A stretch of 64,000 nucleotides of DNA from Diplonema papillatum (Eukaryota; Euglenozoa; Diplonemea; Diplonemida; Diplonemidae), in NCBI GenBank assembly GCA_030068145.1, contig JAPJBO010000058.1:310001-374000 (forward strand), in the 5' to 3' direction. Within the stretch, counting starts at the first letter, position 1. Each line of letters begins with the position of its first letter. The notes beneath the pieces are model-generated. The model was not told where the DNA came from, searched no databases, and was given only the letters and a program-made list of their open reading frames with translations. Of the stretch, positions 3,035-49,577 are shown in pieces. A program made the position numbers and the translations under genes.

Positions 3035-3141
3035 TTCTTCAGTCACGGTAAATCTCTCCTCCAACACTTCCAGGACCACTGCGAAACACCGCTCTTGCAC
3101 CTTCGCGAAAGAAGGAAGCCCCCCAAAGAGAAATAGCAACA

Positions 3142-4695: not shown

Positions 4696-4704
4696 TCGTT
4701 GTTC

Positions 4705-29120: not shown

Positions 29121-32100
29121 ATGGACATCAAGATATTAGCCTTCGCGTTGGCGAGCGTGCTGGTTCCGGGCGCTTCGGGCGCTGTTTCGTCGTGCTCGGT
29201 GGTTGATGCGGGCAGGCTGGCGAGGGCCAGAGGCGGAATCGAGGCGGTCGGTGAGGTTGTCGACAGGTTGCGGGCGAGGCTCGCGCACGTCGATGTTGCG
29301 CTGTTCGGTGGGCCCGCGCGCAGCGGGCATCCGAACCGGCTGGTCGCCGAGAGTTTTGGACTCGACACGACCGGCATCGCGCGACTGAACGACACGCAGG
29401 ATGCGTCTTTGAAGGAGCTACAAGACGCCCTTCCCGGCCACGCCACGCTAACCTGCGCTGTAGACGACGAAACCGGCGAGCTGAAGCTGGGGCTATCCGC
29501 GATGCCTTCGTTCGGGGTTGCCCTGCACGGCAGCTGGAACGACCTGCCCGCTTTGACCGTCGACGCGCTCGGCCTCGTGTTCGAGAGTGCGGCGCTGAGC
29601 CTGGAAGGGGTCGGGTCCGTCGAAGTCAAGGTCACCCTGGCCATCCCGGAGACGGGGCCCGTCGCGTTCGAGTTCACTCGCGCGCGCTTTTCGTTCGCGT
29701 GCGATCGGCACGTCTCGGAAACGACCACGTGGCGGTCGGCCTTCGGCGCCGTCCGCGTCGAAGGCCCGGCGGCGGTGGCCAACGGGTCCGTCGAGCTGGC
29801 CGTGCCGGACGCGGGGTCCCCGGCGGAGCTGCGGGCGAGGCTGCCGGAGATCCGCGCAGGGCGCGCCGCCGGCGCGCTGACCGCCGAGCTGCAATTTGAC
29901 GCCTGCGCGGCCGGCTTTAACGTCTCGTCCCGCCCCGGCGCCACTCTCTCCGTCCGCACCCCGAGCATCTTCGCCACGTCCCCAGCCGTCGTCGTCGTCG
30001 ACGCGGGAGCGGACGCGTTCGAAGCAGCGATCTTGCAACTTGCAGCGCAGTTCGAGTCGCTGGACGACCATCTGACGACGCGGCTGCTTGCGGGGAACCT
30101 CACGGCAGGCGGGGGTCAGGTGGAGGTGCACGACGGCCTCGGCGCGCTGCTGCGGTCGGTGCGCCCCGCGCTGCAGCGGCACTGCGGGCGTGTGGCGGGG
30201 GCCGGCGGGGTGCCAACGTTCGGCGGGCTCGCTGCCGCCCTGAGCGACCACTTCGCCGCGGGCGCGCGCTCGCTCGCCCTCGCGTCGTGGAACGTGTCCG
30301 GCGGCTGGCGGCCGGAGGTGCGCGCATTCACCCTGCGCTGGGTCGTCGACGTCGCCCTCCCCCTCGACCGCGCGCACGTCTCCCTCCGCGACATCATCTC
30401 CGGCGCCGTGCAACCCGCCGCGCTAAAAGACGTCCTGCAGTTTTGGGGCACCGGGGGAGGCCTCGGCTCGGGCGCCGTTTCGTTCGTGGACGGGACGTTC
30501 ACCCACGCCGCCAACGCGCGGCTGGACGTGTCCATCGGGCTGCCGTACGACCCGGAAGCCGGCGGCGTCCCTTCGGCGAACGACGGGTTCGTGCGGATCG
30601 ACGAGCTCTCCGTCGGCGTCGGCGCTGCGGCGGACCCCGCCGCATTTGTGGCCGACCTGCCCGGAAACCGGCGCCTCGACGCCGCCGACGGGAGCGTCTC
30701 GGTGCACGCGTCGGCCCGCTGCGCGGCCCACCACGCCACCCTCCTCGAGCTCTCGGCCGGCGGCGGGTTGGCGCCCGCGCTCGGCGCGATGCCGTGCCGC
30801 CGGCGCGGCACCGTGGGGCTGGGGTTCCGGCTCGCGGTCACGGACGCCGATGGCGCCGTCTCGGCGCACCCGGGTTTCTACCCCGTGGCGCAGTACCGCG
30901 ATGCCGACGCGTTTAGCGGCAGGTTTCCGGGGTTTACCCTCGATGTCGACCTGAGCTTCTTCATCCCGTCCCTCCCGCGTGGGGATGGAGAGCCGCCCGG
31001 CCTCTCGTTCCCCGAAAACAAGCTGGACCCGCTAACGGACTCGCTCGCGGCGGCGCTCGGTCGCGTGGGCGGAGCGGAGCTGCACTTCCCGAGAGTCGGC
31101 ACGCTGCGGCGGCTGTTCTCGCAGTTTTCCGGCGGAAGCGTAGACTTCGCCGCGTACATGGCGGAGTACGCCGCGCTCGCGACGGCGTTCAACCAGCTGG
31201 AGCACGGCATGCCGGCCGACTTGAAGCTGGACCTCGCCACGTCGCGGCGGCTGCTAGGCGACGACGAGTTCCAGGCGAGTTTGCTGCGGGCGTTCAACGA
31301 GAGTTACCCGACTGTGTTCAGCCGGTTCAACGTCGACGGGCTCGACGAGGCGACCGGAGAGGCGTTCGACGCTCGCGACTTCCTCCGCCACTGCCAGGTT
31401 TACTTCAACCTCGCGCAGTCTCTACCTGGAGCTGATCCTGCCTTCAGCGTGGACCAGCTGGAAGGCATTCTGGCCCTGTCTCCTCATTACGCGATGACCG
31501 TGCAAACCGCGAAGGCGCTTCTTTCAGCGGCGCACACGGTGCGCTCCGGCTTCGGGGATACGGACGCGACGGGGTTCCCGGTCAATTCCGAAGGCTTCCG
31601 GTTCGACCCTTTGCAGCACTTGCCCGAGGTGTGCCAGGCCATCCGGCTCCCTGCTTCTTGCAGGCTGGCGGATGTCGCCAAGCGGCTGTCCACCGCTTCT
31701 TCAACGGAGGGGGCCAACCGAGAGTTTCAGACCCTCGTGCTCGACATGCTTGCCGCCCGGGTTCCCGCATCGTTCGCTCGGTATTCAGCAGTTTCAACGT
31801 CGGGGAGGCGATACGACCCGTCCACTGGCGAGGTCTTCGACTACAGGACCCACGCGACTGCGGTTGCAGCGTGCCTCGGGCTCGCAACCGGAGCGGACGG
31901 GCCGCAGGAATATCCCCTCTCCGTCGTCCCGCTCCTTCGTTCGACGTTCGACAAGCACCCGTCCCTCGGCGGCTTCTTCAGATACGCGGCTGACCGCGCC
32001 GCGGCGGGCGGCGGGGGGTCGGTCCGGATCGAAGCGCCGGCCGTGGGTCTGCGCAGGGAAGGCCCGCGGATCGTGCTCGCCGCAGCGTTTTCGTTGGCGG

Positions 32101-35100
32101 CGGCCGGAGCAGGCGGCGCCGCCGCCGTCGACGCGACGGCCGCGTCGGAAGCGCTGTTTTCAGACGGCTCGTTCTCCGTCCTGATGTCCGACCACGCTGG
32201 GGTCGTCGCGACGGCGAGCAGCGTGACGGTGAAGATGGGGCTCGAGGCGGGTGTCGACCTTACGGCGCTGGTCTCGCAGGACGGCGCCGCGGCGGGCGGC
32301 GGCGCCGCATCGCCGTTCGTGCACTTGACCGCTTTTTCGTACGAAGCGGCGTTCAAGAGCGCCGCCGGCGAGCTGCCGGCGGTCGAAGGCTCGCTGCGCG
32401 GCGCGTTCGACGGCGCCCGGTCCGCCTTCGCCACCCTCAACGAGTCCGCCGCGCCCTCGCTGCCCGCCTCTTTCCAAGCCGTTTTGGGCAGCCGCGGCGC
32501 GTTTGCGGCCGTCTTCTCGGGTGCCGGCGCCGGCGTCGGCCCGCGAACCCTCCGCATTGTCGCGCCCTCCGCATTTTCGCCGGAAGCGGCGCCCGCCGCC
32601 CACGCGCACGTCGTCGACCGCGCGATGGCGGGCGCGCAAGTCCAGCGGCTGCTCCAAGCGCTGGACCGGATGCAGGCCGTCGGTGCCGCTCTCGACGGCG
32701 CGCCGCCGCTGCGCACGGCCATCCCGGGTCTCGGCGTCACCGCCGCCGGCATCGTGAACGCGACCGCCGCCGGCGGCGGCTGGGCGCCGCTGTTTTCGTG
32801 GGGCGCGGGCCTGCGGGCTTTGCTCGACACCGCCCACCCAACCTGCGTCGGGGGAGGGCAGGGGGCGGCGGCGTGTCCGACCGTGCTGGAAGTCGTCGGC
32901 GCACTGGGGGAGACGATCGCCTCCGCCGGGCGCGACCGGTTTTCGCGGTGCTGGGGCGACAAGGGGTCGGTCGTCGGCGGCGACGTGCTGAAGGCCGGCG
33001 CGGCGCTCGACGTCTTCGAGCTGTCGTTCGAAGCGGGCGTAGAGTGCGCGCACGGCGCGCCGGTGTCGCTCGCCGACTTCACCCGCCGGACCGGCGTCGT
33101 GTTCGACGGCGTGCGCCCCGCGACCGTCCCGTTCCGGTTCGCGCATTCCGCCGCCATTTCCGGCCCGAGGATCGCGGACGGCGCGTGGTGGACCACCATC
33201 CGGTCCGTCACGCTTTCCATCCCGCGGGCGACACACCCGATCGCAGCCAACCGCGCGCGAATCGGCCTGCTCGATGCCGACCTCGTGAACGCGTCCAGCA
33301 CGTTGTCCTTCGAGTTCCGCGGTGACTTCAACAACGGAGAACCAATGTCCGTGTCCAATTTCGACGCGTCCACTTTCCGGTATGCGTCCACCGGTGCCGC
33401 GTCTACCTGCGTCGCGGTCGCGCCGCAGGTCAACGGCCGCGCCGTACTCGCCCAGCCCGCGTCCGCGTGCCTGGAGGCCCCGGAAGCCGCCGGCCTGTTC
33501 GCCGCCGCCCCGCAGTTCGCCGCCGCCGGCTTGGACGCGCTCGCGGGCTTCGAAGCAGTCGGCCCGGCGCGGGTGCTCACCGCGCTGGGCGGCGTCGCGG
33601 CGGCGGCGGCCGAGTACTGGGCGTCCGACGTCTTCGCGTGGCCCGTGCCGCTGACCGGCGTCCACGTCGGTGACCTCGCAGCCGGCGCGCGGGCGGCGGC
33701 GCCGCTCGAAAAAATCGGCCTGCTCCGCGCTGACCCGAGCGCGCCGCTCTGCGTCGCCTTCGGCAGCCCGGCGGATCCGTGGCGCGGGGCCTGGCGCAGC
33801 GGAGTCGAAGTGCTGCTCAACAACAGGCACCGGAGCCGCGTCGCCTTCTCCGCCGCCGAAGCCGAAGCCGCGGCCGAGCCGGCCCGCCTGCAACAGGTGC
33901 TCAACGGCGGGCTGCGGGAAGCCGGGCTCGCGTCCGCGTTGCGGTTTTCCGTCGAAGGCGTGGTAACGGCGGGCGTCTCGCTGTGCACGGTTGCCGCGTT
34001 CCGCGCGACGGACCTGCGGGTTTGGGTCCCCGGCCGGGAGATGCTCGGCGGGGGGTTGGAGGCCAGCGCGCCTCGGTTGCCCACGTTTTCAACGATCAGC
34101 GAGCTCTCTGCGATCCTCCGCCGCACGGCGGAGATTGCAGGCGACGACATTTGCTCGTACGTCCAGCCCGCGAACGGAACAGAGCAAGCGGGGGACCGCG
34201 AGCTTCTGTTCGCCTTCCGACTGCCGTTCGCGCTGCCATCGGTGTCAACGCCCGTGGTGGTTTCCCACGACGAGTTCGCGCCGTTTGTACATGTGAAAGC
34301 CGAAGGCGACGCGGTTGTCCACGCGGAATTCGAGCTGCACGGCGAGTTCGGCGTCCGGTTTGCCGGCACCCCGCAGTCGGCGCGCGTCACGTACACCCTC
34401 CCCGAGGGAAGCTCCCCGGCGGACGTGCTCGGCCGGGATTTCGGCGTCGCCGTTTTGGTGGACGGCCAGCTCCGCGGCGGCGTCCTCTTCGAGGGAGAGG
34501 CGCTGTTGGGGTCCCTGCAGCGGGTTCTGGCTGAACTTGCGCCCTTCGCCCCGGGGATAGCCGTCCGCGCGTTCAGCTCGTCGAACCGAACGCTCACGGT
34601 CCAAGCGGACGGGGCGGCGCGGCTGCGGGTTGAGCTGGACGACGCGCTTGCGCTCGCGCAGCCAGACGGCGGCGCCGGTATTCACCCGATTTTCGGCGCC
34701 CTCGCGTGGAGCGGCGTGGCGGCAGCTGTTGTATCGGCCTTCGGATACTCGGCGCGGCACTCGGTCTTCGACGTCTCCGGCCACCAGGGCCGCGGGACCG
34801 TGTCGATAGCCCTTGAGGGATCGTTTCCCGCTCACGGGTCTCCCGCCTCGCTCCGCGGGCAGGTCATCCGGAGCGAATACTCCTCGTTCTCGTCGTCGGC
34901 GGCCGTGGCGGCGGATGCGACCGTCCCGTCGGCGGCGGCGGCCGCCGCCGGCCTGCCGGCGCACGAGTTCACCGCGCGGCTGGCCGGGGCCGCCGCGGCC
35001 GACCTGCTGGCGGCCGACTTCCGCGCCGCGGCGCCTGCGGCGCGGGCGGCGCGGTTCGCGCCGCGGCTCGCGGCGGTTCCCAGTAGTGGCGTGCCGGCGC

Positions 35101-38100
35101 TCGCGAACCTGACCGCCGCCGGCGTCGCGGCGGCGGCGGCGCGCGGCGCCGCCGCGCTCTTCGGCGCCCCCGGGGTGGCGGCGGCAGCGCTGGCGGTGAA
35201 GGTGCCGTTTTTGCAAGCCGTGGTCTCCGACGCGACGGTCGGCGCGCAGGCGACTTTGCGCAAGCTCGCGCGGCCACCGGGCCCCCGCGCCACCCTGGCC
35301 GGCTTCCAAGAGTGGGTGCGGCGCACTTCCGCGAACTCGTCGTCCGCCTGCGACGTCTCGTTCGCGATCGCCGAACAACAACGGCTGCGAGCGACCCTCG
35401 ACTGCACCTTCGAGGGCCACCACCTCGCCCGCATCTCCGCGAGCGAATGGGCCGGGGCGCTCGAGGCGGTTCCCTCCGCTTCGCAACAAGGGTTCTTCGA
35501 CCCCGATGGGAGCCTCCCCGTCGAGCTCGCAAGCTCGTCTCGCTTCCAACTGACCCTCTCCTTCCCGGCGTCCGGGGCGCCCGTCCTTGTCGCAGACGCC
35601 AGCTTCAGCGTCAGCCTGCGGGCAGGGGTGCAGAGGGAAAACATCGTCCTCGGGCTCGGATCGCTTCGTCTCCCCGTTTCTCGCCTGGTTTACACCCTCG
35701 GCGGCTCAGCCGCCGGCTGCGGAGCGTTTGCAGAAGGCGCCGCGGCGTTTGTGTTTGCGCTGAACGACGAAGCCCGGGCAACGGCCCTCGAAAGCCTGCA
35801 ACCGTCCGACTTCCACGTATCCGCGACAGGGGCAGCCACGGCGTGTGTCCGGTTTGCGTTCGATGCGGAAAACGAGGTCAAGCTTTCGGTTTCGGACCTG
35901 TCCGAGTACGCGAAGCACCCCGGGGCCGCCGCGTCGTCGGCCATCGCCGCGCCGGACCTGGAGAGGATCGTGCGCCGGTTGAAGGACATGCACGAATCCT
36001 TCGACCCCGGCTTCGCTTTGCTTGAGGACCCGTCGACCTTCACCAACGGCCTCACCGCGTTGCTGGCGTGGGTCGGAGAGTCGATCGCGGGGGACGGCAG
36101 CGAACTGGCAGGCCTGCAAGTACCGCTCGTCGGCGACCACGCGCGCAAGGCAGCCAACGAGCTGTTTTTCGCGTCCTTCGCCTCCGGCATGGCCGCGTCG
36201 ATCCGCGAGCACCTGCGCCTGCAGTCGTGCGCGGCGGTCGGGCGGCCGGCCTGCGAACGGGACCAAAGCGCGCCGCACGCCGTCGCGCGCGCGATTGCGC
36301 GGGCGTCCCGCGGGAATTCGAGCTTTTTCCTGTGCGACCCGACGACCGAAGCACCCCTCGGCGGCGAGATCCCGCTCGAGCAAGCGGCGGCCGCCGTCAG
36401 GCTGTCCGTCAGGGACGCGGCAGGACGCCGCGTCGACAACGCCGTCGACCCTGCCACCGGCTCCGTCGGCTCGTTCGACCTCCTCCCCGGCGCGGACGCT
36501 GTCGAATGGGAGGTCGTCGTCGGCGGAGAGGCGGAGGCCACCCGCGAGCTCTCCGTCGGCGTCGCCGCCGGCGGCCAGTTCTCGCTGAATCTCACCGTGC
36601 CGGAGGCGGCGGGAAGGGTTTCGGCGGGGTTCCGGTGCCGTCTGGTCTTCGGCTGGAGCAGGACGGACGGCGTGTACCTCGCAACCCAAGGGCTGGGCAC
36701 CGTCGGGTACGTGAAGGTGAGGCTGGGTGATCGCGATGCGGCGGTGCTGAGCGGGACTGCGTCCGAGTTGTCGGCGAGCGCACGGGACGTGGGGACTGCG
36801 TTCGCGGGGTGGATCTCGGTCAAGGTCGACGCCGCGCGCGTCCCGCAACGCCGGCTGCTGTCGGCCGACGTCGGACGCTACGCGGCGGGCATGTTCACCG
36901 CCAGCTACGACTTCGGCGGCGTCGCTCGACTGAACCTGTCCCTCGCGTCCTCCGGCATCCCGCTGGTGCGCGCCGGCTTGTTCTCGCAGTCCCGCCTGTC
37001 CTCCTCCCCGGCCCCCGCTGCCGCCGTCGCGCTTCCCTCCGACTTCGGTGAGATCCCGTCGGCCGCCGGCTTTCCGGAGCTGTTGCTCGTCGACGTGCGC
37101 GCAGACCACGCTCAGCTTGCGGCCCGCTTGGTCCTCCCCGTCGTCGACCAGCTGGCCTCCCTTTTGGACCCGCTGGCTGCGGTGTTCGACAAATACTCGG
37201 CGGTTATCTCGAAGGGGGCCGCGCTTGAGTACCAATCGCCCAACGCCACCGTTCTCGACGTGATCGACGCTCTCGAAGCCGTCGACCCGAGCATCACCGG
37301 CCTCACCTCCGGCGCGAGGGGTTACCTGGCGGCATTCGAAAGCGTACACCGCATGCGCACCGCGGTTGAAGACCTGCTGGAGAGTGTCGGTTACGAAGCG
37401 CCGGTGTCCATCGGCTCGTACGCCGTCTCCGCGGCGGCCGCCGACCCGTGGAACGGCGCGCTGCCGCCCGGGTTCGACGGGGCGGCGGCGGCGGCGGCGG
37501 CGGCGGCGTCGCCGTTTGCGGGTTTGCTGGCGTCGTCGCCGGCGTGCAACCCGCCCATCTTCACGGCTGCTGGTGCCCTCGCCGCGGCCCTCGGCCGCGC
37601 CGCGACGCTGTTCGCCCTCCGGGCGCCTGCCATGGTGCTCGACGTGGCGTTCGACGCCCGCCGCGCCGATCTGGCCGCCGGCCCGTTCCCGCACCCCCCC
37701 CGGGTGGCGCTCCGAGCCGGGTTCGAAGCCGACTTCAGCGTGCGCCCCCGCAGGGGCGCCGTCCTGCAAGCCTCGGGACACGTGTCGGCGGTGGCGTTTC
37801 CGGAGCTGGAGGAGAGCCGGTCGTTTTTTTCAACCGGCGCCGCCGGCGGCGACACCGAATTGCTGCGTCCCGACTTCGAAGTGCCGCTGGCCGCATGCAA
37901 TGATCTCCGGGGGAGAATGCTGGAGGCTGGCGCGTGGTTGCTGGTGTCTGAAGAAGGGGCACGGAAGTGCTACCGGTCGTATGTTGCGGCGGCGGGGGAC
38001 GAGCCGAGGCCGGCTTTGGTGACGACGGCGAATTTGACGCTGCATATCGGGCCGGGCGCGGGCGCGCGGGTTGCCGGCGGCGCGGCGCACGACGCGGAGA

Positions 38101-41100: not shown

Positions 41101-44100
41101 CACCAGACAATTACGCTTCACCGCAAACAGTCACGGTCACCGCCGTGCAGGACAACGTAGTGGATGACGTACCAGCTCTACACTTCCCGTCGCAACCGTC
41201 GACATTGCACAAGTTGCAAGGCGCCTTGACAGTCGAAGGAGGCCATGGGTTCGTCTTGTCGTTTGTTGTGATTGACCCAATTGTACTCCCCGGTGAGACA
41301 AGCGAGCCGAACAGCTGGCAGAGAGACCTCGGCGGCGATGATGCAGCGCACGTCGATCGTTTGTTTGTGTTCGACTCGGACAGCATTGCCGCACCGGAGG
41401 CTTATCACTGGTACCAGCAGCTCGTAGGCTTAGGCATGGGCTCTTTTACCACGCTTTTTCAAGACGTGGGACAGAACGGTATCAAGCATGCTGACATGGA
41501 AGTGTTTGATGTCACCCTTGGCGCGTCGGACAACGTCATCGCAGAAGTCCTTACACCACAGACGCCAACCATATTCCGCCTAGGCGGCGGGAACGACAGG
41601 GTTAGGCTATCCGTCGTAGTCGGGCCGCTCTTCTTCGACGCGGGCCCCGGAAACGACACGTTCGTCTTCGAAGGTGTCTTCTCGAACATCCTCAAACTCG
41701 ACGACGTCGCGTCGATTTCTGGCGGCGCCGGCCACGACACGATAACCTTCCACAGCGGGGCTTCGAACCCCGCCGGCGACGCCGGCGTCGTTTCCCGCAA
41801 CAGGATAACCGGCTTCGGCATGCGCAGCGCGCGGACGAACGGGCTGCCGTCGGCGCAGTTCATCACAATCCGCGGTAGCTCCGGCAACTTCACGCTCTCT
41901 CTCGAGCACAAGGGATCCGTCCACAACTACACGTTCGCCGTCGGCACGCCGGCCGATGTTCTGGAAGATACCCTCCGCACAACCGCGTTTGCCCTCGCCT
42001 GCGAGGACCATTCGCTGGTCCGGTGCCAGATCGGTTTCGCCGTGTATCCAGTCGACGTCGAAGGGGCGTCGGCGTACACGATCCAGTACCCGACGGAGGT
42101 GGCCCTCGAGAAGGCCGGGCTGCTGTTTTGGGTCGACACGTCAGCGGTCGTCGGAGAGCAGCCCGAGTACTTCAACGGCACCGACGTCAACAACCTGCCG
42201 CTCACCATCGGCGTGGTTTTCGGGTCCATTGAAGAGGTGAACATCGAGCTGGCCGAGAAGAACGGCGGGGCTCTGAACGTGCGCGGAACGTCGGCTCCGA
42301 CACGCGTGTTCTCAAGCGGGGGGGACGACACCGTGGCCGTGTCGTCGGAGAGCTCGCTGCTGACGGCCCAACAGGCCCGGGGCGCGATGTACCTGTCGGG
42401 GATACTCGCGTATTTGGACCACCCGTTGTCCATCGATAATGTCGGGGGAGCGCCGAATCGGTTGCTCGTGTCGGATTCAATGGGGGCCGTCGGCAGGTTG
42501 AAGATGTTCATCGAAGAAAGCACGGTGAAAAACTTCGCGCCGGTGACCATCGAGTACCTTGGGAACTTCACCCGCGGCGTTGCCTTCTGGACGACGGACT
42601 TCTACGACGAGGTCGAGGTCTTTACCTCGCCTCTCGGCCAGCCGATGCCGCCCATCGTGCTGAACATGGGCCCCGGCGACGACACGGTGGAGATCGACCT
42701 GTTCGACGACCGGACGGGGGGTTTTGTCGTGAACTGCGGGGCCGGGGATGACGTCGTGGACGCCGTCCTGACGACGGTGCCGCTCTTCGTGTTCGGCGGC
42801 TCGGGGGATGATACGATCGTGTCGGGCCGAGGGTCCGACGTGATCTTCTGCGACGAAGGCAGGCTGGAAGTGACGGCGGGCGGCGGCACCGTGGTCCTGG
42901 GCGACGCCGCGAGCGTGCCGGGATTCGACGGCGCGATCTCGCTCGTCTCCGCGTGGACGAACGGATGCGACGAGCAAGGGGGAGGCGACGTGGTGTTCAG
43001 CCCGTATCCGGGTTCCGACGTTGTGTTTGGAGGCGCCGGGAACGACTTCGTGACGACAGCTGGGCTAGCCGGGGAAGCCATCTTCGGCGACTTCGGGACC
43101 GTGACGTGGGACCCGTCGCTCGGCGCGGTCAACTACGCGGAAGCCACGTGCAACGCGACCGGCGGCGACGACACGCTGTCGGCGACGGCACGCGACGTGG
43201 GCGGCGACATGGTGTTCGGGGGCTTCGGTGCGGACCGGATCACCGTCGCGAGCGGCGCCGCGAAAAACGTCGTGTTCGGCGACTTTGGCCGCGCGGCAGC
43301 GGCAGGCAGCGCGGCGGTGCCGGTGGTGACGTACGCGGAGAGCACGCTCCCCGGGGCCGGCGGCCCCGACCAGCTGAAGTGCTCGGGGTCCAACAGCGAC
43401 GCCGGCGACATCATCTTCGGCGGCGCCGGCGCAGACCTCATCGACGCGGGCCCCGGCAACGACACCGTCTTCGGAGACTACGGCAGGTACGCCACGCAGG
43501 ACAAGCGGGGGGTCCCGCACCACAACGCCGCCTCTCTCTTCACCGACAACTTCGCGGCCCTCGGAAACGATACCATCCAGACCCACGACGGCACGGACAT
43601 TGTCATCGCCGGGCAGGGCGAGGACACGGTCGACGGGGGCGACGGCGATGATTACATTTTGGGCGACTTCGGCGAGGTGCTGATGACCTTCGACTACAAC
43701 GCGGTTCTCATCTACCCGAAAGCGGGCGCGGACGCGGCCAACGGAGACGACGACATCACGGGGGGGCCCGGAAACGACGTGTTGGCGGGCTGCGGCGGGT
43801 CCGACGTCATGCGGGGCGACGGCGGAGACGACGTGCTGTTCGGCGATTTCTTGGAGTTCGAAGGCGGGGTGCATCCGGCGAACCGTGACTACGAAGTTTG
43901 GTCCGAGCTCCCGCTGGAGGCCGGCGGGGCGGACGCTTTGTACGGAGGCGACGGAGTTGACGTGCTCGTCGGCGGACAGGCCGCCGACGTCGCGTTCGGA
44001 GGCGAAGGTGGCGACTATATTGCGGGAGACCACGCCGAGATGGAGTACGTCTCGAGGCATTCCTTCGATCAGTTCCAATCGGAAGACGCGGCGAGCGGCA

Positions 44101-47100
44101 GCGGCGACCAGCTGCAGGGCGAAGAAGGAGACGACGTGTTGATCGGCGGCGCGGGGGACGACTACATGGACGGCGGCCTCGGCGAGGACATCATGTTTGG
44201 TGATGAAGGCAAGCTGCGCCGACAGCTCGGCCTCGCCGCGCTGAATACACAAAGCGACGAACCAAGTGCGGCGGGCAACGACGTGATGTTCGGAGGCCCT
44301 GGGGATGACGTGATGTTCGGCGGCCTCGCGAACGACACCATCCACGCCGGTGATGGCGACGACTACGTCGTCGCCGATCAAGGGACGATTTCGTTGAACG
44401 CCGCCTCGGGCAACCGCATCACCACCGTGACCTCGATTGACGGAGGACACGACACCGTTTTCGGCGGGCCCGGGGAAGACTACATCATGGGCGGCGGCTT
44501 CGCCGACGTTCTGCACGGCGACGACGGAGACGACGTCATATTCGGCGACTACGGCTCGTACAGCTCGGCGCCGCCGACGGTGTTCAAACTGTTCGAGTCG
44601 ACTTTTTTGGCAGACGCCACCGCCGGCGCGGACGACGTGTCAGGCGGCGCCGGCGCCGACATCCTCGTCGGCGGCGGCGGCCGCGACTCGATTTCGGGCG
44701 GGTCGGAGGCCGACTGGATCTTCGGCGACCACGCGAAGGCGGAGATCAACCCGCAGCGGAACAGCACCCGGTTCTCGTGCCTCGCGGCCGGCGGGCAGGG
44801 GCGGGGCGACAGCGACGACGACCTGCGTGGGGACGACGGGGCTGACCGCATGTTCGGCGGGGCCGGGAACGACACCGCTGACGGGGGTGCTGGAGACGAC
44901 ATAATTTTCGGCGACTTCGGCGTCTACGAGAGCGACCAGCCTCTTGTGTTCAAGGCGGCAAGCTCGCTCACGGCGGATACCGCCGGCGGCTCTGACTCGC
45001 TGGCTGGAGGCACCGGAAACGACTACTTGGTGGGCGGCCAGTACTCGGATGACCTGCGGGGAGACGACGGCGGCGACTGGCTGTTCGGCGACCACGCGGA
45101 AATGTGGTCCTACGCCGCCGAAAACTACACCCGAGCAGCGAGCACCAACCCGGAGGATCTAGGGGCCCCGGACACGCTGTCCGGAGGTTCCGGCAGCGAC
45201 GTGGCCGTCGGCGGCGTCGGGGCGGACGAGCTGCGCGGCGGCGGCGGCGCCGACGTGTTGATCGGCGACTTCGGGTTTTTCGAGGAAAAAGTAGCCGGCG
45301 CCGGAGCCGGCGAGCGGTCGTACCAGACGCTGTTCGCGGAGGTGTTCTGCGCGGACGGCCCGGAGGCGCACGGCGACCTGATCGTCGCCGGGCCCGACGG
45401 CGCGGCGGTGATCGCAGGGCAGGGCTCGGACACGGTGGTCGGAGGCGACGGGGACGACTGGGTCTTCGGGGATCACGGCAGGGTGTCGGTGGCGGTCGAT
45501 GGCGGCGTGACGTCGGTCACGATGAAGACGATGCAGACGGACTCGTGTGCTGGAGAGGTCGACGTCATCGACACGGGCGCTGGGGATGACATCATATTTG
45601 GAGGCGCGAAGGGTGACAACATAACGGCAGGGGATGGCGACGACGTGATCGCAGGCGACTTCGCGGCTTACTCGCTGGTTTCCGATGGGGAATACGAGTT
45701 GACGTCGACGGATCCGGACGGCGAAGGCGGCCCGGATCTCATCTCCGGCGGGAACGGCGACGACCTCATCGTCGCCGGGCAAGGCAACGACACCATAACT
45801 GCCGGGAGCGGCGACGATTATGCAATGGGCGACCACGGTGACATCCTCGTGCAAACGAAGCTGGGCGTCACCCTTGCGCGGAGCCTGTTCCCCACACAAG
45901 GTGCCAGCGACACGATCCTCGCTGGGGACGGAAACGACGTCGTCATAGGAGGACCCGGCAGCGACGATCTTGACGGCGACGCAGGGGATGACTACATCCT
46001 CGGAGACCACGGAAGACACGAGCGTCAAGCAGGCGACATCCGGTGCCAGTCGCTGTTCTCGAGCTTCCTTTCGGACGGCGGCGACACGATCACGGGCGGG
46101 CCGGGCGATGACCGATTGATAGGCGGAGGCGGCAGGGACACAGTGCACGGCTCCTCCGGCAGCGACCTCGTCATGGGCGACGGGGCACTGGTCATCGAGT
46201 TCAGCGACGGCTTCGTGCACTGGGAGACGACGGACATCGGGTTTGCGGACCACGACTCTCTTTTCGGAGGGGAAGGGAACGACGTTCTTTTCGGGAGCGG
46301 TGGCGCAGACGTGATTCACGGCGGCGCCGGCAACGACACAGTGATGGCCGACTACGCATGGCTCGTGCGTGAGGAGGGAGGGTACAGGAAGTTGCAGCCT
46401 CTGTACGTTCAGTACAACAGAGGAGTGGCGGACGCTGTGGATGGTGGGGAGGGCGACGATGTCATCGTTGGGCAGCAAGGCGGGGACGTGCTCAACGGCT
46501 CTGCCGGCAACGACATGATTTTCGGCGATCAAGCGACAGTTTGGCTGGCGTTCTCACACGAGAACCACACAGTCATCAAGGCCGAGTCGACCGCTTCAAC
46601 CAATGGACTCGGCGGTAACGACATCATACACGCAGGAGACGGAGACGATTACGTCTTCGGTGGGTCCTTGCACGACACCATATATGGCGGAGATGGCCAA
46701 GACGTTCTTCTCGGAGACTACGGCTCGTTTGTTTCTGAGCTCGACCCGACGGACCCTTACCGCAGCATTTTGCTGGGGAGCGCTGAAAACGCTGGAGACG
46801 ACGAGATCCACGGTGGCCCCGGGGACGACTTCATCCTCGGGCAGCAGGGCTCCGACCGTATCTTCGGAGAGGCCGGCGACGACGATTTGACGGGCGGCCA
46901 CAACGCGGCCCACGGCGACGACGCGGGGGACGCGATTGAAGGAGGCGATGGCGACGACTTCATCCTCGGCGACAACGGCAGGATCGAACGGGACGTTGTG
47001 TCCAGCCAGGCGGCGCCGCCGTTCGTCTGGGGGAAGGTGTTCCGCACGGTCTCTGGGGTGTCCAGCGCGGACCGGTCAGTTCAGCGGTTTGACGACATCG

Positions 47101-49577
47101 ACCTGGTCTCCGGCGATGATGTCATCGACGGTGGGTCGGGAGACGACGTTGTCTACGGGCAGAGGGGAAGTGATACAGTAGACGGTCAAGCCGGCGACGA
47201 CAGCATCGTCGGCGGGCTTGGGCACGATGTGCTGAAGGGAGGTTCGGGGAATGACGTGATGATCGGCGACGTTGGAGACATTCGCTACGCATTACTGGCG
47301 GACGGCACCGCGCGGGTGAACAACCGCACAGGCTCAAGGCACAGAGACATCATATTAGAAGAGCCCGGGCGAATCCTGCAGTACCACCCCAGTGCCACGA
47401 CCAAGCACTTCACTCCCCAAGAGGCTGCACTCCTCTTCGATGCCGATGTCCTCCTGTCACTCGGCGGTCACACTAACTCAACTGCTCGAGACAAGTCGTT
47501 TGTACAAACGGGTACGTGCACCTCGACATCCACGGTTGACAACCCTTCGTCGGTTGTGCAGTCCAACTGCCGAGACCCTTGGGACACAGCAGTCGCTGGT
47601 CTCAGGCTTGAGCCGAGTGGTGATGACGTGATGTCAGGCGATGACGGGGACGACGTTATGATCGGCCAGCGAGGAGACGACCAGCTGTCCGGCGGCGCCG
47701 GGAATGATTTCATGTACGGCGACGGCGTGTCATCGAGCTACTTCTACGCCTCCGACATCCCGCTCGTCACGAACGTGTTCCGCCTGCTGTCGGTTGCGGG
47801 CGACGACACTCCGCTTCGCGTCGCGAGCTTCGGGACCGTCGTGTCGGCGCCGCTCACGCTCACGCCCGAGCAAGCCGCGCGGAGCAGCGCGCTTCCTTCG
47901 CTCGAGCAGGCTTCGGTCGCAACCGTTCTGCCGCATGCGCTCAGCGCGCTGCACTCCTGGGCAAAAGTGGCCGACATCGAGCGGACCGACGTGGCGTACG
48001 GCATGCGTGCGTATGCGTCCATCATCCCCGACGCTGTTGGGCACGCAGGAATGCTTCAAGGCAACGACATGCTGAACGGCGGCGACGGTGAAGACGTGCT
48101 CGTCGGCGACACCGCCATGTATCACTGCCTGGTCAACTTGGACGTGGTCCCGCTTGAACAAGGCAGGGAGCGTGCCGTTGGACTGTGGGATGAGCTGCAG
48201 GTTCGGCTGGCGCGGGCGTCCGTCGATTTGGCCACGTATGCCAACGAGGCGGTTGCGAAGGGCGCCGCCGTGAACGTGGCGCAGGGGAACGACGAGCTGA
48301 TCGGAAGCGACGGAAACGACTTGATCGTGGGAGACGCGCTCGAGGCGTTCGTCGACGTCTTGTTCCACGGAGACGTCGACGGCAACACAGCCGACGACGT
48401 GGCGATGGGGCTGATGGAGCTGTACAGCGACTACGAGATTCTGGCGGTGGACGCCGCTCAGTTGGTGTACGAAGCTCACCACGCAGTCGTCAAACAGCTC
48501 TACGACAACAGAGCCGCTGGCGTGCTGGCGGCGGAGTCGCGTATAAGCGTGTCCAATGACGTCGTCAACGGTAGCTCTGGCAACGACGTCGTCGCCGGGG
48601 ACTCCCTGCTGCTCGTCGTCAAGACACTGGCGCAGCCGTCCGACTTCTACAAAACGAAGCAACGCAGCAGCGTGAGAACTGCGGCCCTGGCGGACGACCT
48701 GAAGGCCCGGTGGCAATCGCATGTCCTCCTCGACCTCTCCCCGTCGTCATCCCTCCCGGGCCACACCTTGCAGAGCCGGAAGGCGTGGAACCGGTCGCCG
48801 CTCACGCGGTACGGCTGCGACGTGATCCACGGCGCCGGCGGGAACGACTCCATCACCGGCGACTTCGCGATGCACTTCGTCGACACGTTCGGGGGCCGCG
48901 GGTACGACGGCCTGACGGGGAAAAGCTTCTACCAAGCCATGGACTCCAGCCACGTGAGCTACCTCGACGCCTTGTCGCTTAAACTCGGGAGCAGGGTATT
49001 TTCGCCGAACCGTTTCCAGCGCCTGACGGCAGCCACGGGGATCCACGAGCCGTTGAGTTTGTACAACGACAAAGGGAGCGGCGCGTCTGCCGTCAGCGAG
49101 CCCGCTTCAACCTCGTTGTCAGACTTCGTATCTGGCGGAGGTGACGACGACTTGTTGGTGGACAGCAACGCGGTGTCTGTTCTTTCGCTGGATCACCACA
49201 CGGAGAGCGACATTCCGGCGTTCGCAGGCTGGAACGGCGGGTACTCAGGAAAACGACGTCTGAACGACTTGAATACGTGGCACGGCTCGTCGGAAGGCGT
49301 CGACAGCATGTCCGGCGATGCTGGGCAAAACATCGTCGTTTCCGGGCAGGTGGATGCCGCTCGGGCGGCGCAGGAGCCGTCGACGCAGTTTTTGGCCTCT
49401 TTCAGCAGCGCGCAGGCGTGGTCGTTCATGGACCGGCAGTTCTCCGATATTTGGCGCGCGACCGACTTCCTGTCCCTTTCCCAAGACGGCCTCCCGACGC
49501 TCGACAGCCCCCCGCTCTTCCAGACGCAGCAGCACAACGGCATCTTCGGCACTGTACCCGACCTGAAAGCTCCGTGA
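29121..49577 (+). CDS. Giant secreted protein with Calx-beta-like and RTX-type calcium-binding repeats
   Basis: One uninterrupted frame of 6,818 codons. A hydrophobic signal peptide (ILAFALASVLVPGASGA) starts it. Residues ~22-2980 are Ala/Gly/Val-rich and modular: a VPLxG-like motif recurs (PGLGVTAAG, VPLTGVHVGD, VPFLQAVV, VPLVGDHARK) between beta-rich segments. Residues ~2980-4500 hold repeats of the form VxGTPAxxTxVxxGxGDD, likely a beta-helix. Inserted in them are two Calx-beta-like units (about 3684-3807 and 3939-4016, with TESGTTDTYTVHL and TVFPTLLRFSPDNY). Residues ~4517-6194, with sparser copies to the end, carry dozens of RTX motifs (GGxGxDxU), grouped in modules capped by GDFG, GDHG, GDYG or GDEG. 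No transmembrane anchor or catalytic motif is seen. A surface or extracellular calcium-stabilised protein is likely. Start choice is supported by the signal peptide. Confidence 0.85.
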   Translation: MDIKILAFALASVLVPGASGAVSSCSVVDAGRLARARGGIEAVGEVVDRLRARLAHVDVALFGGPARSGHPNRLVAESFGLDTTGIARLNDTQDASLKELQDALPGHATLTCAVDDETGELKLGLSAMPSFGVALHGSWNDLPALTVDALGLVFESAALSLEGVGSVEVKVTLAIPETGPVAFEFTRARFSFACDRHVSETTTWRSAFGAVRVEGPAAVANGSVELAVPDAGSPAELRARLPEIRAGRAAGALTAELQFDACAAGFNVSSRPGATLSVRTPSIFATSPAVVVVDAGADAFEAAILQLAAQFESLDDHLTTRLLAGNLTAGGGQVEVHDGLGALLRSVRPALQRHCGRVAGAGGVPTFGGLAAALSDHFAAGARSLALASWNVSGGWRPEVRAFTLRWVVDVALPLDRAHVSLRDIISGAVQPAALKDVLQFWGTGGGLGSGAVSFVDGTFTHAANARLDVSIGLPYDPEAGGVPSANDGFVRIDELSVGVGAAADPAAFVADLPGNRRLDAADGSVSVHASARCAAHHATLLELSAGGGLAPALGAMPCRRRGTVGLGFRLAVTDADGAVSAHPGFYPVAQYRDADAFSGRFPGFTLDVDLSFFIPSLPRGDGEPPGLSFPENKLDPLTDSLAAALGRVGGAELHFPRVGTLRRLFSQFSGGSVDFAAYMAEYAALATAFNQLEHGMPADLKLDLATSRRLLGDDEFQASLLRAFNESYPTVFSRFNVDGLDEATGEAFDARDFLRHCQVYFNLAQSLPGADPAFSVDQLEGILALSPHYAMTVQTAKALLSAAHTVRSGFGDTDATGFPVNSEGFRFDPLQHLPEVCQAIRLPASCRLADVAKRLSTASSTEGANREFQTLVLDMLAARVPASFARYSAVSTSGRRYDPSTGEVFDYRTHATAVAACLGLATGADGPQEYPLSVVPLLRSTFDKHPSLGGFFRYAADRAAAGGGGSVRIEAPAVGLRREGPRIVLAAAFSLAAAGAGGAAAVDATAASEALFSDGSFSVLMSDHAGVVATASSVTVKMGLEAGVDLTALVSQDGAAAGGGAASPFVHLTAFSYEAAFKSAAGELPAVEGSLRGAFDGARSAFATLNESAAPSLPASFQAVLGSRGAFAAVFSGAGAGVGPRTLRIVAPSAFSPEAAPAAHAHVVDRAMAGAQVQRLLQALDRMQAVGAALDGAPPLRTAIPGLGVTAAGIVNATAAGGGWAPLFSWGAGLRALLDTAHPTCVGGGQGAAACPTVLEVVGALGETIASAGRDRFSRCWGDKGSVVGGDVLKAGAALDVFELSFEAGVECAHGAPVSLADFTRRTGVVFDGVRPATVPFRFAHSAAISGPRIADGAWWTTIRSVTLSIPRATHPIAANRARIGLLDADLVNASSTLSFEFRGDFNNGEPMSVSNFDASTFRYASTGAASTCVAVAPQVNGRAVLAQPASACLEAPEAAGLFAAAPQFAAAGLDALAGFEAVGPARVLTALGGVAAAAAEYWASDVFAWPVPLTGVHVGDLAAGARAAAPLEKIGLLRADPSAPLCVAFGSPADPWRGAWRSGVEVLLNNRHRSRVAFSAAEAEAAAEPARLQQVLNGGLREAGLASALRFSVEGVVTAGVSLCTVAAFRATDLRVWVPGREMLGGGLEASAPRLPTFSTISELSAILRRTAEIAGDDICSYVQPANGTEQAGDRELLFAFRLPFALPSVSTPVVVSHDEFAPFVHVKAEGDAVVHAEFELHGEFGVRFAGTPQSARVTYTLPEGSSPADVLGRDFGVAVLVDGQLRGGVLFEGEALLGSLQRVLAELAPFAPGIAVRAFSSSNRTLTVQADGAARLRVELDDALALAQPDGGAGIHPIFGALAWSGVAAAVVSAFGYSARHSVFDVSGHQGRGTVSIALEGSFPAHGSPASLRGQVIRSEYSSFSSSAAVAADATVPSAAAAAAGLPAHEFTARLAGAAAADLLAADFRAAAPAARAARFAPRLAAVPSSGVPALANLTAAGVAAAAARGAAALFGAPGVAAAALAVKVPFLQAVVSDATVGAQATLRKLARPPGPRATLAGFQEWVRRTSANSSSACDVSFAIAEQQRLRATLDCTFEGHHLARISASEWAGALEAVPSASQQGFFDPDGSLPVELASSSRFQLTLSFPASGAPVLVADASFSVSLRAGVQRENIVLGLGSLRLPVSRLVYTLGGSAAGCGAFAEGAAAFVFALNDEARATALESLQPSDFHVSATGAATACVRFAFDAENEVKLSVSDLSEYAKHPGAAASSAIAAPDLERIVRRLKDMHESFDPGFALLEDPSTFTNGLTALLAWVGESIAGDGSELAGLQVPLVGDHARKAANELFFASFASGMAASIREHLRLQSCAAVGRPACERDQSAPHAVARAIARASRGNSSFFLCDPTTEAPLGGEIPLEQAAAAVRLSVRDAAGRRVDNAVDPATGSVGSFDLLPGADAVEWEVVVGGEAEATRELSVGVAAGGQFSLNLTVPEAAGRVSAGFRCRLVFGWSRTDGVYLATQGLGTVGYVKVRLGDRDAAVLSGTASELSASARDVGTAFAGWISVKVDAARVPQRRLLSADVGRYAAGMFTASYDFGGVARLNLSLASSGIPLVRAGLFSQSRLSSSPAPAAAVALPSDFGEIPSAAGFPELLLVDVRADHAQLAARLVLPVVDQLASLLDPLAAVFDKYSAVISKGAALEYQSPNATVLDVIDALEAVDPSITGLTSGARGYLAAFESVHRMRTAVEDLLESVGYEAPVSIGSYAVSAAAADPWNGALPPGFDGAAAAAAAAASPFAGLLASSPACNPPIFTAAGALAAALGRAATLFALRAPAMVLDVAFDARRADLAAGPFPHPPRVALRAGFEADFSVRPRRGAVLQASGHVSAVAFPELEESRSFFSTGAAGGDTELLRPDFEVPLAACNDLRGRMLEAGAWLLVSEEGARKCYRSYVAAAGDEPRPALVTTANLTLHIGPGAGARVAGGAAHDAETVTIREVEGPLGNGLVELHFESFSSEELVRLERPNATEFFGSGGQAGDTVQLLMPTAAGTFSGGSVFKVDYRSSLVSIPSGTLSDTSLTGFLLTGTLAVDGFDRVELFLTQFKDTLRIVGTPANATTYVYLGPGDDTLRIEVETERFFGNLVILGEGGDDSVVVTAVSASKGQKGNMTEEGIMGMGMAAGVVVSFETVESVQVVLSDLDDDFAVLGTPAGSSVTVDSGVGRDEVTVKVSDGHPKGGLSIAGSSDTGAVLHVDASQAPNLNGVMDATSITGFGMLGEISCTDFVKWNFDVPSSANLTIHNTHAGAVMITGGVGAEDIFIKATTGLLSLITGDGRDFLFFDVPGTLLGPVIVDTGRGTDLVEVSLAGSGALNMTISDSGSMYDEDEVRIFGTAAPDTFLCRSDFVALVPVPAQGTDVERIDFASSFAGMVKIYGGDGPDTFVFDGTPSAVFAYGGRGSDRFVVGQELRAATDVLGHMTDGNHHRLTCHGGDDDDFFSIGRNLAPVRLLGGSGRDRFLVNYIVPNVTNPAAALSPVYITGEEGDDYVAYKAGSIVAAAGGVGIDELVIFGTDGPDTFVVTGGNAYGANVSVVHDGFEKFQLNTLAGDDEVTMLDMPERTAATVAMGLGSDTFFLTPANKSTTAMGRDTRGHSAVIQHVVSSADEGYNGIPVEGIAARVADEDAPGVVVIAAGIYHLFEDSTGPAEYSLFLAKKPTSTVIVVIEPPEPADIPNARTLSVYPAVLLFTETDWKVPQTVSVDARPGDGLEPETVYFLVHEVIQTGGSMEYHNLDVSPVRFRVIDADAVGIYYVPHSPSHRISEGGEGGVPTTYSYDVHIKPCRAGWEHSVLVDATMSFRDRGEVTVTPSSFRLGYYVEGTEVRDHCKRTIQIEAVDDSVVDGIYSSYVSFRITDGGLHFPSSPSPAARLPYIPVEIIDNDTPFVIITETNEHTLVTESGTTDTYTVHLTRKPSHDVTVTPVLKDGQVTVFPTLLRFSPDNYASPQTVTVTAVQDNVVDDVPALHFPSQPSTLHKLQGALTVEGGHGFVLSFVVIDPIVLPGETSEPNSWQRDLGGDDAAHVDRLFVFDSDSIAAPEAYHWYQQLVGLGMGSFTTLFQDVGQNGIKHADMEVFDVTLGASDNVIAEVLTPQTPTIFRLGGGNDRVRLSVVVGPLFFDAGPGNDTFVFEGVFSNILKLDDVASISGGAGHDTITFHSGASNPAGDAGVVSRNRITGFGMRSARTNGLPSAQFITIRGSSGNFTLSLEHKGSVHNYTFAVGTPADVLEDTLRTTAFALACEDHSLVRCQIGFAVYPVDVEGASAYTIQYPTEVALEKAGLLFWVDTSAVVGEQPEYFNGTDVNNLPLTIGVVFGSIEEVNIELAEKNGGALNVRGTSAPTRVFSSGGDDTVAVSSESSLLTAQQARGAMYLSGILAYLDHPLSIDNVGGAPNRLLVSDSMGAVGRLKMFIEESTVKNFAPVTIEYLGNFTRGVAFWTTDFYDEVEVFTSPLGQPMPPIVLNMGPGDDTVEIDLFDDRTGGFVVNCGAGDDVVDAVLTTVPLFVFGGSGDDTIVSGRGSDVIFCDEGRLEVTAGGGTVVLGDAASVPGFDGAISLVSAWTNGCDEQGGGDVVFSPYPGSDVVFGGAGNDFVTTAGLAGEAIFGDFGTVTWDPSLGAVNYAEATCNATGGDDTLSATARDVGGDMVFGGFGADRITVASGAAKNVVFGDFGRAAAAGSAAVPVVTYAESTLPGAGGPDQLKCSGSNSDAGDIIFGGAGADLIDAGPGNDTVFGDYGRYATQDKRGVPHHNAASLFTDNFAALGNDTIQTHDGTDIVIAGQGEDTVDGGDGDDYILGDFGEVLMTFDYNAVLIYPKAGADAANGDDDITGGPGNDVLAGCGGSDVMRGDGGDDVLFGDFLEFEGGVHPANRDYEVWSELPLEAGGADALYGGDGVDVLVGGQAADVAFGGEGGDYIAGDHAEMEYVSRHSFDQFQSEDAASGSGDQLQGEEGDDVLIGGAGDDYMDGGLGEDIMFGDEGKLRRQLGLAALNTQSDEPSAAGNDVMFGGPGDDVMFGGLANDTIHAGDGDDYVVADQGTISLNAASGNRITTVTSIDGGHDTVFGGPGEDYIMGGGFADVLHGDDGDDVIFGDYGSYSSAPPTVFKLFESTFLADATAGADDVSGGAGADILVGGGGRDSISGGSEADWIFGDHAKAEINPQRNSTRFSCLAAGGQGRGDSDDDLRGDDGADRMFGGAGNDTADGGAGDDIIFGDFGVYESDQPLVFKAASSLTADTAGGSDSLAGGTGNDYLVGGQYSDDLRGDDGGDWLFGDHAEMWSYAAENYTRAASTNPEDLGAPDTLSGGSGSDVAVGGVGADELRGGGGADVLIGDFGFFEEKVAGAGAGERSYQTLFAEVFCADGPEAHGDLIVAGPDGAAVIAGQGSDTVVGGDGDDWVFGDHGRVSVAVDGGVTSVTMKTMQTDSCAGEVDVIDTGAGDDIIFGGAKGDNITAGDGDDVIAGDFAAYSLVSDGEYELTSTDPDGEGGPDLISGGNGDDLIVAGQGNDTITAGSGDDYAMGDHGDILVQTKLGVTLARSLFPTQGASDTILAGDGNDVVIGGPGSDDLDGDAGDDYILGDHGRHERQAGDIRCQSLFSSFLSDGGDTITGGPGDDRLIGGGGRDTVHGSSGSDLVMGDGALVIEFSDGFVHWETTDIGFADHDSLFGGEGNDVLFGSGGADVIHGGAGNDTVMADYAWLVREEGGYRKLQPLYVQYNRGVADAVDGGEGDDVIVGQQGGDVLNGSAGNDMIFGDQATVWLAFSHENHTVIKAESTASTNGLGGNDIIHAGDGDDYVFGGSLHDTIYGGDGQDVLLGDYGSFVSELDPTDPYRSILLGSAENAGDDEIHGGPGDDFILGQQGSDRIFGEAGDDDLTGGHNAAHGDDAGDAIEGGDGDDFILGDNGRIERDVVSSQAAPPFVWGKVFRTVSGVSSADRSVQRFDDIDLVSGDDVIDGGSGDDVVYGQRGSDTVDGQAGDDSIVGGLGHDVLKGGSGNDVMIGDVGDIRYALLADGTARVNNRTGSRHRDIILEEPGRILQYHPSATTKHFTPQEAALLFDADVLLSLGGHTNSTARDKSFVQTGTCTSTSTVDNPSSVVQSNCRDPWDTAVAGLRLEPSGDDVMSGDDGDDVMIGQRGDDQLSGGAGNDFMYGDGVSSSYFYASDIPLVTNVFRLLSVAGDDTPLRVASFGTVVSAPLTLTPEQAARSSALPSLEQASVATVLPHALSALHSWAKVADIERTDVAYGMRAYASIIPDAVGHAGMLQGNDMLNGGDGEDVLVGDTAMYHCLVNLDVVPLEQGRERAVGLWDELQVRLARASVDLATYANEAVAKGAAVNVAQGNDELIGSDGNDLIVGDALEAFVDVLFHGDVDGNTADDVAMGLMELYSDYEILAVDAAQLVYEAHHAVVKQLYDNRAAGVLAAESRISVSNDVVNGSSGNDVVAGDSLLLVVKTLAQPSDFYKTKQRSSVRTAALADDLKARWQSHVLLDLSPSSSLPGHTLQSRKAWNRSPLTRYGCDVIHGAGGNDSITGDFAMHFVDTFGGRGYDGLTGKSFYQAMDSSHVSYLDALSLKLGSRVFSPNRFQRLTAATGIHEPLSLYNDKGSGASAVSEPASTSLSDFVSGGGDDDLLVDSNAVSVLSLDHHTESDIPAFAGWNGGYSGKRRLNDLNTWHGSSEGVDSMSGDAGQNIVVSGQVDAARAAQEPSTQFLASFSSAQAWSFMDRQFSDIWRATDFLSLSQDGLPTLDSPPLFQTQQHNGIFGTVPDLKAP
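42660..47725 (+). repeat. RTX repeat region within the giant gene
   Basis: About 23 modules of 60-110 residues in this stretch, each with two to four nonapeptide-like motifs (for example GGDGDDYILGD, GGAGDDYMDGG, GGEGNDVLFGS) and ending in a GD-x-G/A cap (FGDFGRA, FGDYGRY, LGDFGEV, FGDEGKL, FGDHAKA, LGDHGRH, LGDNGRI, IGDVGDI). More scattered copies follow near 48061, 48289, 48555, 48820 and 49310. In known RTX proteins the Asp carboxylates bind Ca2+ in a parallel beta-roll. Confidence 0.9.

Follow-up and report, generated by a model that had tools for sequence, protein, structure and literature searches.

In the diplonemid flagellate Diplonema papillatum, a 64,000-nucleotide stretch of contig JAPJBO010000058.1 (positions 310,001 to 374,000; hereafter the window) holds an open reading frame (ORF) that runs from ATG to TGA on the forward strand (29121-49577), unbroken over 6,818 codons. 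Where does a gene for such a giant protein of 6,818 residues, here called the diplonemid giant, come from? The sequence comparisons best support a reading in which bacterial giant-exoprotein sequence was transferred and then ameliorated, and we consider it probable that such sequence was acquired, re-routed through the endoplasmic reticulum (ER) and kept as an intronless nuclear gene. This reading is favoured because the protein shows homology to bacterial giants together with host-like codon usage, a signal-peptide-like start, and more cysteines and N-glycosylation motifs (sequons). The direction, from bacteria to eukaryote, is suggested by the spread of the relatives over bacteria and by the secretion genes in their neighbourhoods. 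A preliminary description of the window had already proposed an ancient bacterial transfer with amelioration; the features just named speak for it, but the tree fixes neither donor nor age nor direction.

The C-terminal half shows what kind of protein this is. Pfam finds the RTX repeat (PF00353) in 23 stretches of the diplonemid giant (E 2.7e-110), and 65 matches to the RTX pattern fall within residues 4401-6600. Within the array the repeat period is 9 residues, and a super-repeat recurs about every 58-60 residues. With Gly/Asp-rich nonapeptides in its C-terminal part the protein is, judged from its sequence, an RTX protein as first described, and Ca2+ binding is predicted. Residues 4564-6250 align with G532, our label for a Pseudomonadota genome with an open frame of 13,628 codons, at 34% identity (596 bits, E 3e-179), while the best reversed target reaches E 0.40. 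The median super-repeat is 57.5 residues in G532 and 60 in the diplonemid giant. Besides the RTX repeat Pfam reports no domain in the protein, whose net charge is about -451.

Is the likeness confined to these repeats? Residues 3291-4040 matched two other Pseudomonadota, G437 and G660, at E 8e-56 and 2e-52, and the Pontibrevibacter protein at 1.3e-51. After masking of Gly/Asp/Asn runs the first two values became 2e-35 and 3e-32, and the best reversed target gave 0.87. The best match of the beta-helix-like repeats was to G660 (E 1.9e-42), and G437 aligned with residues 4000-4560 in three collinear pieces. Among plasmids, a tblastn search with residues 3001-4500 hit 9 of 72,556 records at E <= 1e-3, the best matches being annotated LEPR-XLL or calcium-binding proteins plus a DUF4347 protein of Dolichospermum; residues 4501-6818 hit 57 of these records at E <= 1e-10, and all plasmid matches were below 60% identity. 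A search of whole genomes with residues 3101-4033 hit four out of 398 Pseudomonadota (E <= 1e-20), where the matches lie in open frames spanning 4,345, 12,812, 13,628 and 12,249 codons. At the same threshold it hit 0 of 386 cyanobacteria, with at most two candidates scored per listed genome; such an empty result is no proof of absence. Of four genomes with the PLIGD module described below, one gave weak matches to the same residues (best E 1.5e-8). Within the order to which G437 belongs, the one hit of these residues among 78 genomes was G437 itself; within that of G660, 397 genomes gave three hits at E <= 1e-15, of which two were known before. The middle part matched nothing in viral contigs, and when it was used alone against GTDB contigs, none of 7 pattern matches was confirmed. 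The relatives fall in Pseudomonadota, Cyanobacteriota and Actinomycetota.

A further link lies upstream of the beta-helix, in a module named here after its PLIGD motif. Its bacterial copies were drawn from six plasmid records (the query itself among them) and from five GTDB-contig loci, of which the Microvirga locus was a repeat. With six sequences the profile scored 33.4 bits on the diplonemid giant (best of 201 controls, 0.4); a hidden Markov model (HMM) built from ten gave 36.8 bits, against at most 0.1 among 501 controls. The HMM match consists of three collinear pieces, residues 2308-2367, 2489-2722 and 2967-3045, and identity to four aligned bacterial sequences is 19-26%. Taken together, the comparisons indicate bacterial homology over most of residues 2308-6250, weaker up to 6584. 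The proposed kinship to giant bacterial exoproteins is thus upheld and goes beyond the RTX repeats. The preliminary description had also spoken of recurring VPLxG modules, and this was right in part. With a profile of the short helix-PLIGD motif, residues 2302-2365 are significant (E 1.4e-5) and residues 1479-1521 may be a weak second copy: they gave E 0.055 with the initial profile, and 6.3 bits, a score reached by none of 500 shuffled controls, only once the first copy had joined it. No further whole module was found by the HMM in residues 1-2240. In the LEPR-XLL protein of Thalassospira three PLIGD helix motifs were seen (residues 358-420, 1063-1149 and 1649-1734, some 600-700 residues apart); these were found by eye and then made profile members, so they match by construction. 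In that protein Pfam and NCBIfam recognise nothing beyond the LEPR start and RTX repeats.

The rest of the N-terminal half is far less telling. Residues 1-3000 have no Pfam or NCBIfam match, and residues 1-2999 have no PHROG match and no plasmid, phage or viral relative; in viral contigs three stretches fitted a pattern of the N-terminal part and none was confirmed. The link of this half to bacteria was seen only through the profile of bacterial relatives and not by direct search. By eye, the module that precedes the beta-helix in Dolichospermum and the RTX array in Thalassospira looked similar. Self-BLAST revealed no internal repeats in residues 1-2960 or 2951-4300. The units at residues ~3681-4040 had been described as Calx-beta-like, which the Pfam domain search does not bear out: no Calx-beta match (PF03160) above cut-off occurs in the diplonemid giant, and membership was rejected. 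Among five aligned beta-sandwich members, one, a bacterial one, reached E 0.037 for Calx-beta. A search of the PDB with the beta-sandwich alignment gave a single chitinase chain (E 0.62), and with this region alone none.

Which known proteins come nearest to the whole layout? Among the LEPR-XLL and calcium-binding giants of Pseudomonadota, the Pontibrevibacter protein WP_205793450 (10,603 residues), G532, G660 and G437 combine a beta-helix block with an RTX array as the diplonemid giant does; the beta-sandwich block is common to it, Pontibrevibacter, G660 and G437, and the super-repeat of about 58 residues to it and G532. Unlike the diplonemid giant, these four have very few cysteines, and no PLIGD module was found in them. 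Pontibrevibacter and G532 have a LEPR-type start, whereas the diplonemid giant has a signal-peptide-like start and a nuclear gene. The Thalassospira LEPR-XLL protein WP_101286450 (4,033 residues) shares the PLIGD module and the RTX array (E 4.6e-93), but differs in its LEPR-XLL start, in having no beta-helix or beta-sandwich match and in its adjoining secretion genes, which include TolC. The Dolichospermum DUF4347 protein WP_168204493 (8,531 residues) has PLIGD module, beta-helix and RTX array in the order of the diplonemid giant. The PLIGD module occurs also in Geminocystis, Gloeothece, Dulcicalothrix and Iningainema; three cyanobacterial relatives compared have 19-23% identity in it, and the cyanobacterial relatives have no beta-sandwich match. 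The body of beta-helix, beta-sandwich and RTX array is thus that of LEPR-XLL giants, a grouping seen in this analysis and not a published definition; bacterial LEPR-XLL giants vary in the blocks they carry. The presence of each block was scored in 16 bacterial proteins, with G532, G660 and G437 entering as pieces (the contig pieces of G437 and G660 are incomplete). The PLIGD module was present in 10, all of them profile members, the beta-helix in 7, the beta-sandwich in 5 and the RTX array in 14. The block order of the diplonemid giant agrees with every pairwise comparison inspected, and the complete layout is a composite.

If the sequence is bacterial, what has changed in the host? Bacterial RTX proteins stay unfolded at low cytosolic Ca2+, leave the cell by one-step type I secretion and fold at external Ca2+ (Linhartova et al. 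2010, PMC3034196, as far as available to us). Type I secretion is inapplicable in a eukaryote, and the diplonemid giant instead has a signal-peptide-like start. The preliminary description called this start a eukaryotic-type signal peptide, with which its hydropathy agrees in part: residues 5-14 are the most hydrophobic 10-mer of the whole protein (2.75; next, residues 984-993, 2.55). The LEPR-XLL start gave no NCBIfam match at E <= 1 in residues 1-3000 and no motif by pattern, while G532 has the LEPR motif and the LEPR-XLL model matches Thalassospira. Secretion genes (HlyD or RND adaptor and M50/site-2 protease, some with TolC) adjoin five of nine annotated bacterial relatives, namely those of Pontibrevibacter, Alisedimentitalea, Pseudosulfitobacter, Thalassospira and Octadecabacter; none were seen in the other four annotated neighbourhoods (Dolichospermum, Rhodococcus, Geminocystis, Gloeothece). 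G532 has HlyD, PqqD-M50-HlyD and SecA-like genes as neighbours. Near the diplonemid giant no secretion genes were found in 15 stretches of the window scanned with Pfam, a subset of its ORFs. Cysteine makes up 52 of 6,818 residues in the diplonemid giant, compared with 15 of 55,264 in nine bacterial relatives (lengths 2,165-12,918 residues), and the G532 piece has none. Sequons number 49, where 21 are expected by shuffling, and the ratio of forward to reversed motif is 49:21, compared with 680:625 in the nine relatives (p 0.004).

As an observation in its own right, several of the bacterial giants have recurring neighbours: HlyD/RND adaptors, a PqqD/M50 or site-2-protease protein (in G532 as a PqqD-M50-HlyD fusion), in some a SecA-like ATPase or helicase and in two TolC. 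These genes may form an export system that is devoted to such giants and has been little described.

Several points weigh against the transfer reading and should be noticed. The tree does not set the diplonemid giant within any bacterial group and leaves it on a branch of 3.9-4.1 changes per column. Relatives were sought in bacterial genomes, plasmids, phages and viral contigs, so that the sole eukaryote covered is D. papillatum itself. Few genomes match residues 3101-4033 strongly (four out of 398 Pseudomonadota and none out of 386 cyanobacteria, with at most two candidates scored per listed genome), and residues 21-2287 are almost without relatives. The full set of blocks is present in no bacterial protein among the 16; the PLIGD module coexists with a beta-helix in just one, that of Dolichospermum, which lacks a beta-sandwich match, and the best matchers of residues 3291-4040 (G437, G660, G532, Pontibrevibacter) are without the PLIGD module. 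In the tail, residues 6211-6584 match G532 at E 1e-14 and masking of Gly/Asp/Asn leaves nothing; the homology there rests on RTX-like residues and is weaker evidence. What is more, no 19-residue window of the protein, its start included, exceeds 1.9 on the Kyte-Doolittle scale, G532 likewise has a sequon excess (58:35), and two structure predictions were unusable, with values of 32.0 and 35.9 for the predicted local distance difference test (pLDDT).

How complete was the transferred sequence? In its strongest form the transfer reading says that an essentially complete bacterial gene of about 20 kb was captured in one piece from an unsampled donor, and that ER targeting, disulfides and glycans then turned its product into a Ca2+-organised filament for feeding or attachment; we advance this form tentatively and with some doubt. 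Transfers into protists mostly concern ordinary-sized enzymes. As the full set of blocks is missing from every bacterial protein checked, one-piece capture and the transfer reading as a whole become less likely and a chimera more likely. In a chimera, the protein would be bacterial from about residue 2288 on and residues 1-2287 would be host-added; in a variant, the blocks would come from two or more bacterial giants. The missing direct relatives of residues 1-2287, the cysteines there (24 of 52) and the pairing of PLIGD module and beta-helix in one of 16 bacterial proteins are as a chimera would have them. However, the Ala-rich make-up of residues 1-2287 runs on through the bacterial-matching PLIGD module, residues 1479-1521 possibly hold a second PLIGD motif, and the Thalassospira protein has three copies of this motif (the profile members that match by construction). 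We hold a chimera to be unlikely, although it is the alternative to be taken most seriously.

Could the diplonemid giant instead belong to an old eukaryotic surface-protein family, convergent with the bacterial giants or a donor of parts to bacteria? The very long branch would suit such a family. We find it quite improbable: the homology withstands masking and controls and is hard to obtain by convergence, and relatives occur in Pseudomonadota, Cyanobacteriota and Actinomycetota, with secretion genes in five of nine annotated neighbourhoods. Still less probable is a secreted toxin in place of a structural or adhesive protein. NCBIfam models of RTX toxins do match the repeats, and a cytotoxin function has been suggested for a Vibrio LEPR-XLL giant (PMC10868602, seen in part), but the model scores are far below the cut-offs (265 of 1000 bits and 112 of 2000) with the best stretches in the repeats, and Pfam finds no other domain. 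Bacterial contamination or misassembly, which the preliminary description had named as a possible refutation and with which a GC content that exceeds the flanks along much of the gene would agree, is hardly credible given same-strand eukaryotic genes on both sides, host-like codon usage, a cysteine content unlike that of the bacterial relatives and plasmid matches all below 60% identity.

Returning to transfer, the scenario would be as follows. A diplonemid acquired a giant exoprotein sequence of the LEPR-XLL/calcium-binding kind, with PLIGD module, beta-helix, beta-sandwich, RTX array and tail. The bacterial start and the dedicated export would have been replaced by a signal peptide, with entry into the ER presumably via Sec61, and cysteines and N-glycosylation motifs would have been gained after the transfer. 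Ca2+ is already present in the ER, and the RTX repeats might bind it on their way through the secretory pathway as well as in seawater, forming stiff beta-rolls during or after export. The product would be a very long, acidic, rod-like extracellular filament without membrane anchor, and it may serve as adhesive or matrix material, for example in capturing prey or on the feeding apparatus. Judged from the architecture, an adhesive, prey-contact or matrix role is plausible, though we would not put it higher than that; the label of adhesin in the preliminary description is read from the same architecture, and the part of it that named a bacterial giant exoprotein has held. A prey-contact or matrix role gains plausibility because D. 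papillatum has been described as predatory from secretome analysis and feeding experiments (PMC10161547, seen in part, as for all statements from this source below).

The gene itself looks like an ordinary member of its genome. The single frame had been noted before and is secure: in a set of 50 first-order Markov sequences matched in composition, the longest open frame reached 641 codons (mean 401). In 12 segments, with a 2-codon leftover dropped, codon usage correlated at 0.63-0.77 with that of four neighbouring frames, compared with -0.08 to 0.54 for shifted frames and 0.44-0.73 for the reverse strand; it is host-like over the whole length. GC content lies above that of the flanks across much of the gene. 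The recognisable genes on both flanks are eukaryotic and on the same strand, and the contig (C58 of a 271.4-Mb assembly; the published one is given as about 280 Mb, PMC10161547) holds endogenous eukaryotic genes. A search with 22 bases from the diplonemid spliced leader (SL) gave 342 + 303 = 645 matches in the assembly at no more than one mismatch, and 0 with a control, in keeping with a diplonemid genome. If the AG at 29058 is the acceptor, the ORF has a 5' untranslated region (UTR) of 62 nt; in D. papillatum 5' UTRs are about 70 bp, essentially all mRNAs carry the SL, and genes form one-directional clusters (PMC10161547). The preliminary description contrasted the intronless frame with its neighbours. 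Introns do occur nearby, as IMP dehydrogenase is split in four pieces, but the argument is weak: since only about 41% of D. papillatum genes have introns (PMC10161547), an intronless gene is the usual case. The coordinates are collected in Table 1.

Table 1. Features of the diplonemid giant, its gene and the neighbouring genes in the window
Feature	Residues	Position	Strand	Basis or remark
Neighbour NMD3		3052..4692	+	Pfam, E 6.4e-66
Neighbour IMP dehydrogenase, four pieces		6551..9464	+	Pfam IMPDH in three pieces, CBS in one
Putative spliced-leader acceptor		29044..29058	+	T tract ending in GTAAG; suggested by sequence and position
Signal-peptide-like start	1-20	29121..29180	+	Hydropathy
N-terminal Ala/Gly-rich part	21-2287	29181..35981	+	Almost unmatched; 24 of 52 Cys in residues 1-2287
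Possible second PLIGD helix motif	1479-1521	33555..33683	+	Short-profile search
PLIGD module	2308-3045	36042..38255	+	HMM of 10 bacterial sequences; homologous to module of large bacterial proteins
GTPA/GDD beta-helix-like repeats	~3100-3680	38418..40160	+	Matches in bacterial proteins; putative fold
Beta-sandwich-like units	~3681-4040	40161..41240	+	Matches in bacterial proteins, alignment
Linker	4041-4530	41241..42710	+	Non-repetitive motifs QPxxL...GxLxxEGGxG...VLPGE common to G532 and G660 (by eye)
RTX array	4531-6206	42711..47738	+	PF00353; super-repeat median spacing 60 residues
C-terminal tail	6207-6818	47739..49577	+	Sparse RTX anchors; without transmembrane-like segment
Neighbour, one frame with cyclic-nucleotide-binding domain plus mitochondrial carrier; further carrier piece downstream		58566..60508	+	Pfam

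Some other observations on the window may be recorded. At 58566-59948 Pfam finds the cyclic-nucleotide-binding domain and the mitochondrial carrier fused in one frame, to our knowledge an unusual combination. At 14402-15505 the 8-base unit CCATAGCG stands in about 134 tandem copies (1.1 kb). Two-copy tandem repeats lie at 12690-12869 (93 bases), 17510-17654 (72) and 26725-26828 (52), perhaps akin to the gene-adjacent repeats of D. papillatum (PMC10161547). At 63429-63998 a possibly secreted protein begins and runs past the window end; its match to PSI (plexin repeat) is weak and falls short of the Pfam cut-off.

In its own genome, residues 4961-6818 match this gene alone (two places within it, E <= 0.001). 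The genome has 26 PF00353 matches: 19 fall in the giant gene, and the other 7 in small frames of contigs C104, C3, C1541, C2165 and C2538. These small frames (67-200 codons) belong to near-identical short loci with bacterial-style RTX repeats, four copies on C3, C1541, C2165 and C2538 and two on C104, possibly a second, multiplied bacterial acquisition. At least 96 bacterially derived genes have been reported for D. papillatum, the majority of families being metabolic, and the main text does not mention RTX (PMC10161547). Like those genes, the diplonemid giant would be a bacterial gene in a nuclear, SL-using genome. Among the titles and abstract openings listed from the open PMC literature, nothing was found on eukaryotic giants of this kind; LEPR-XLL turns up there in two papers.

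What would the transfer mean, if true? One of the largest bacterial protein architectures would have crossed into a eukaryote and survived the loss of its dedicated exporter, and the gene would be a natural test of RTX export through a Ca2+-containing ER. For the diplonemids, which are abundant and little-known marine flagellates, the protein would be a candidate surface or prey-contact molecule.

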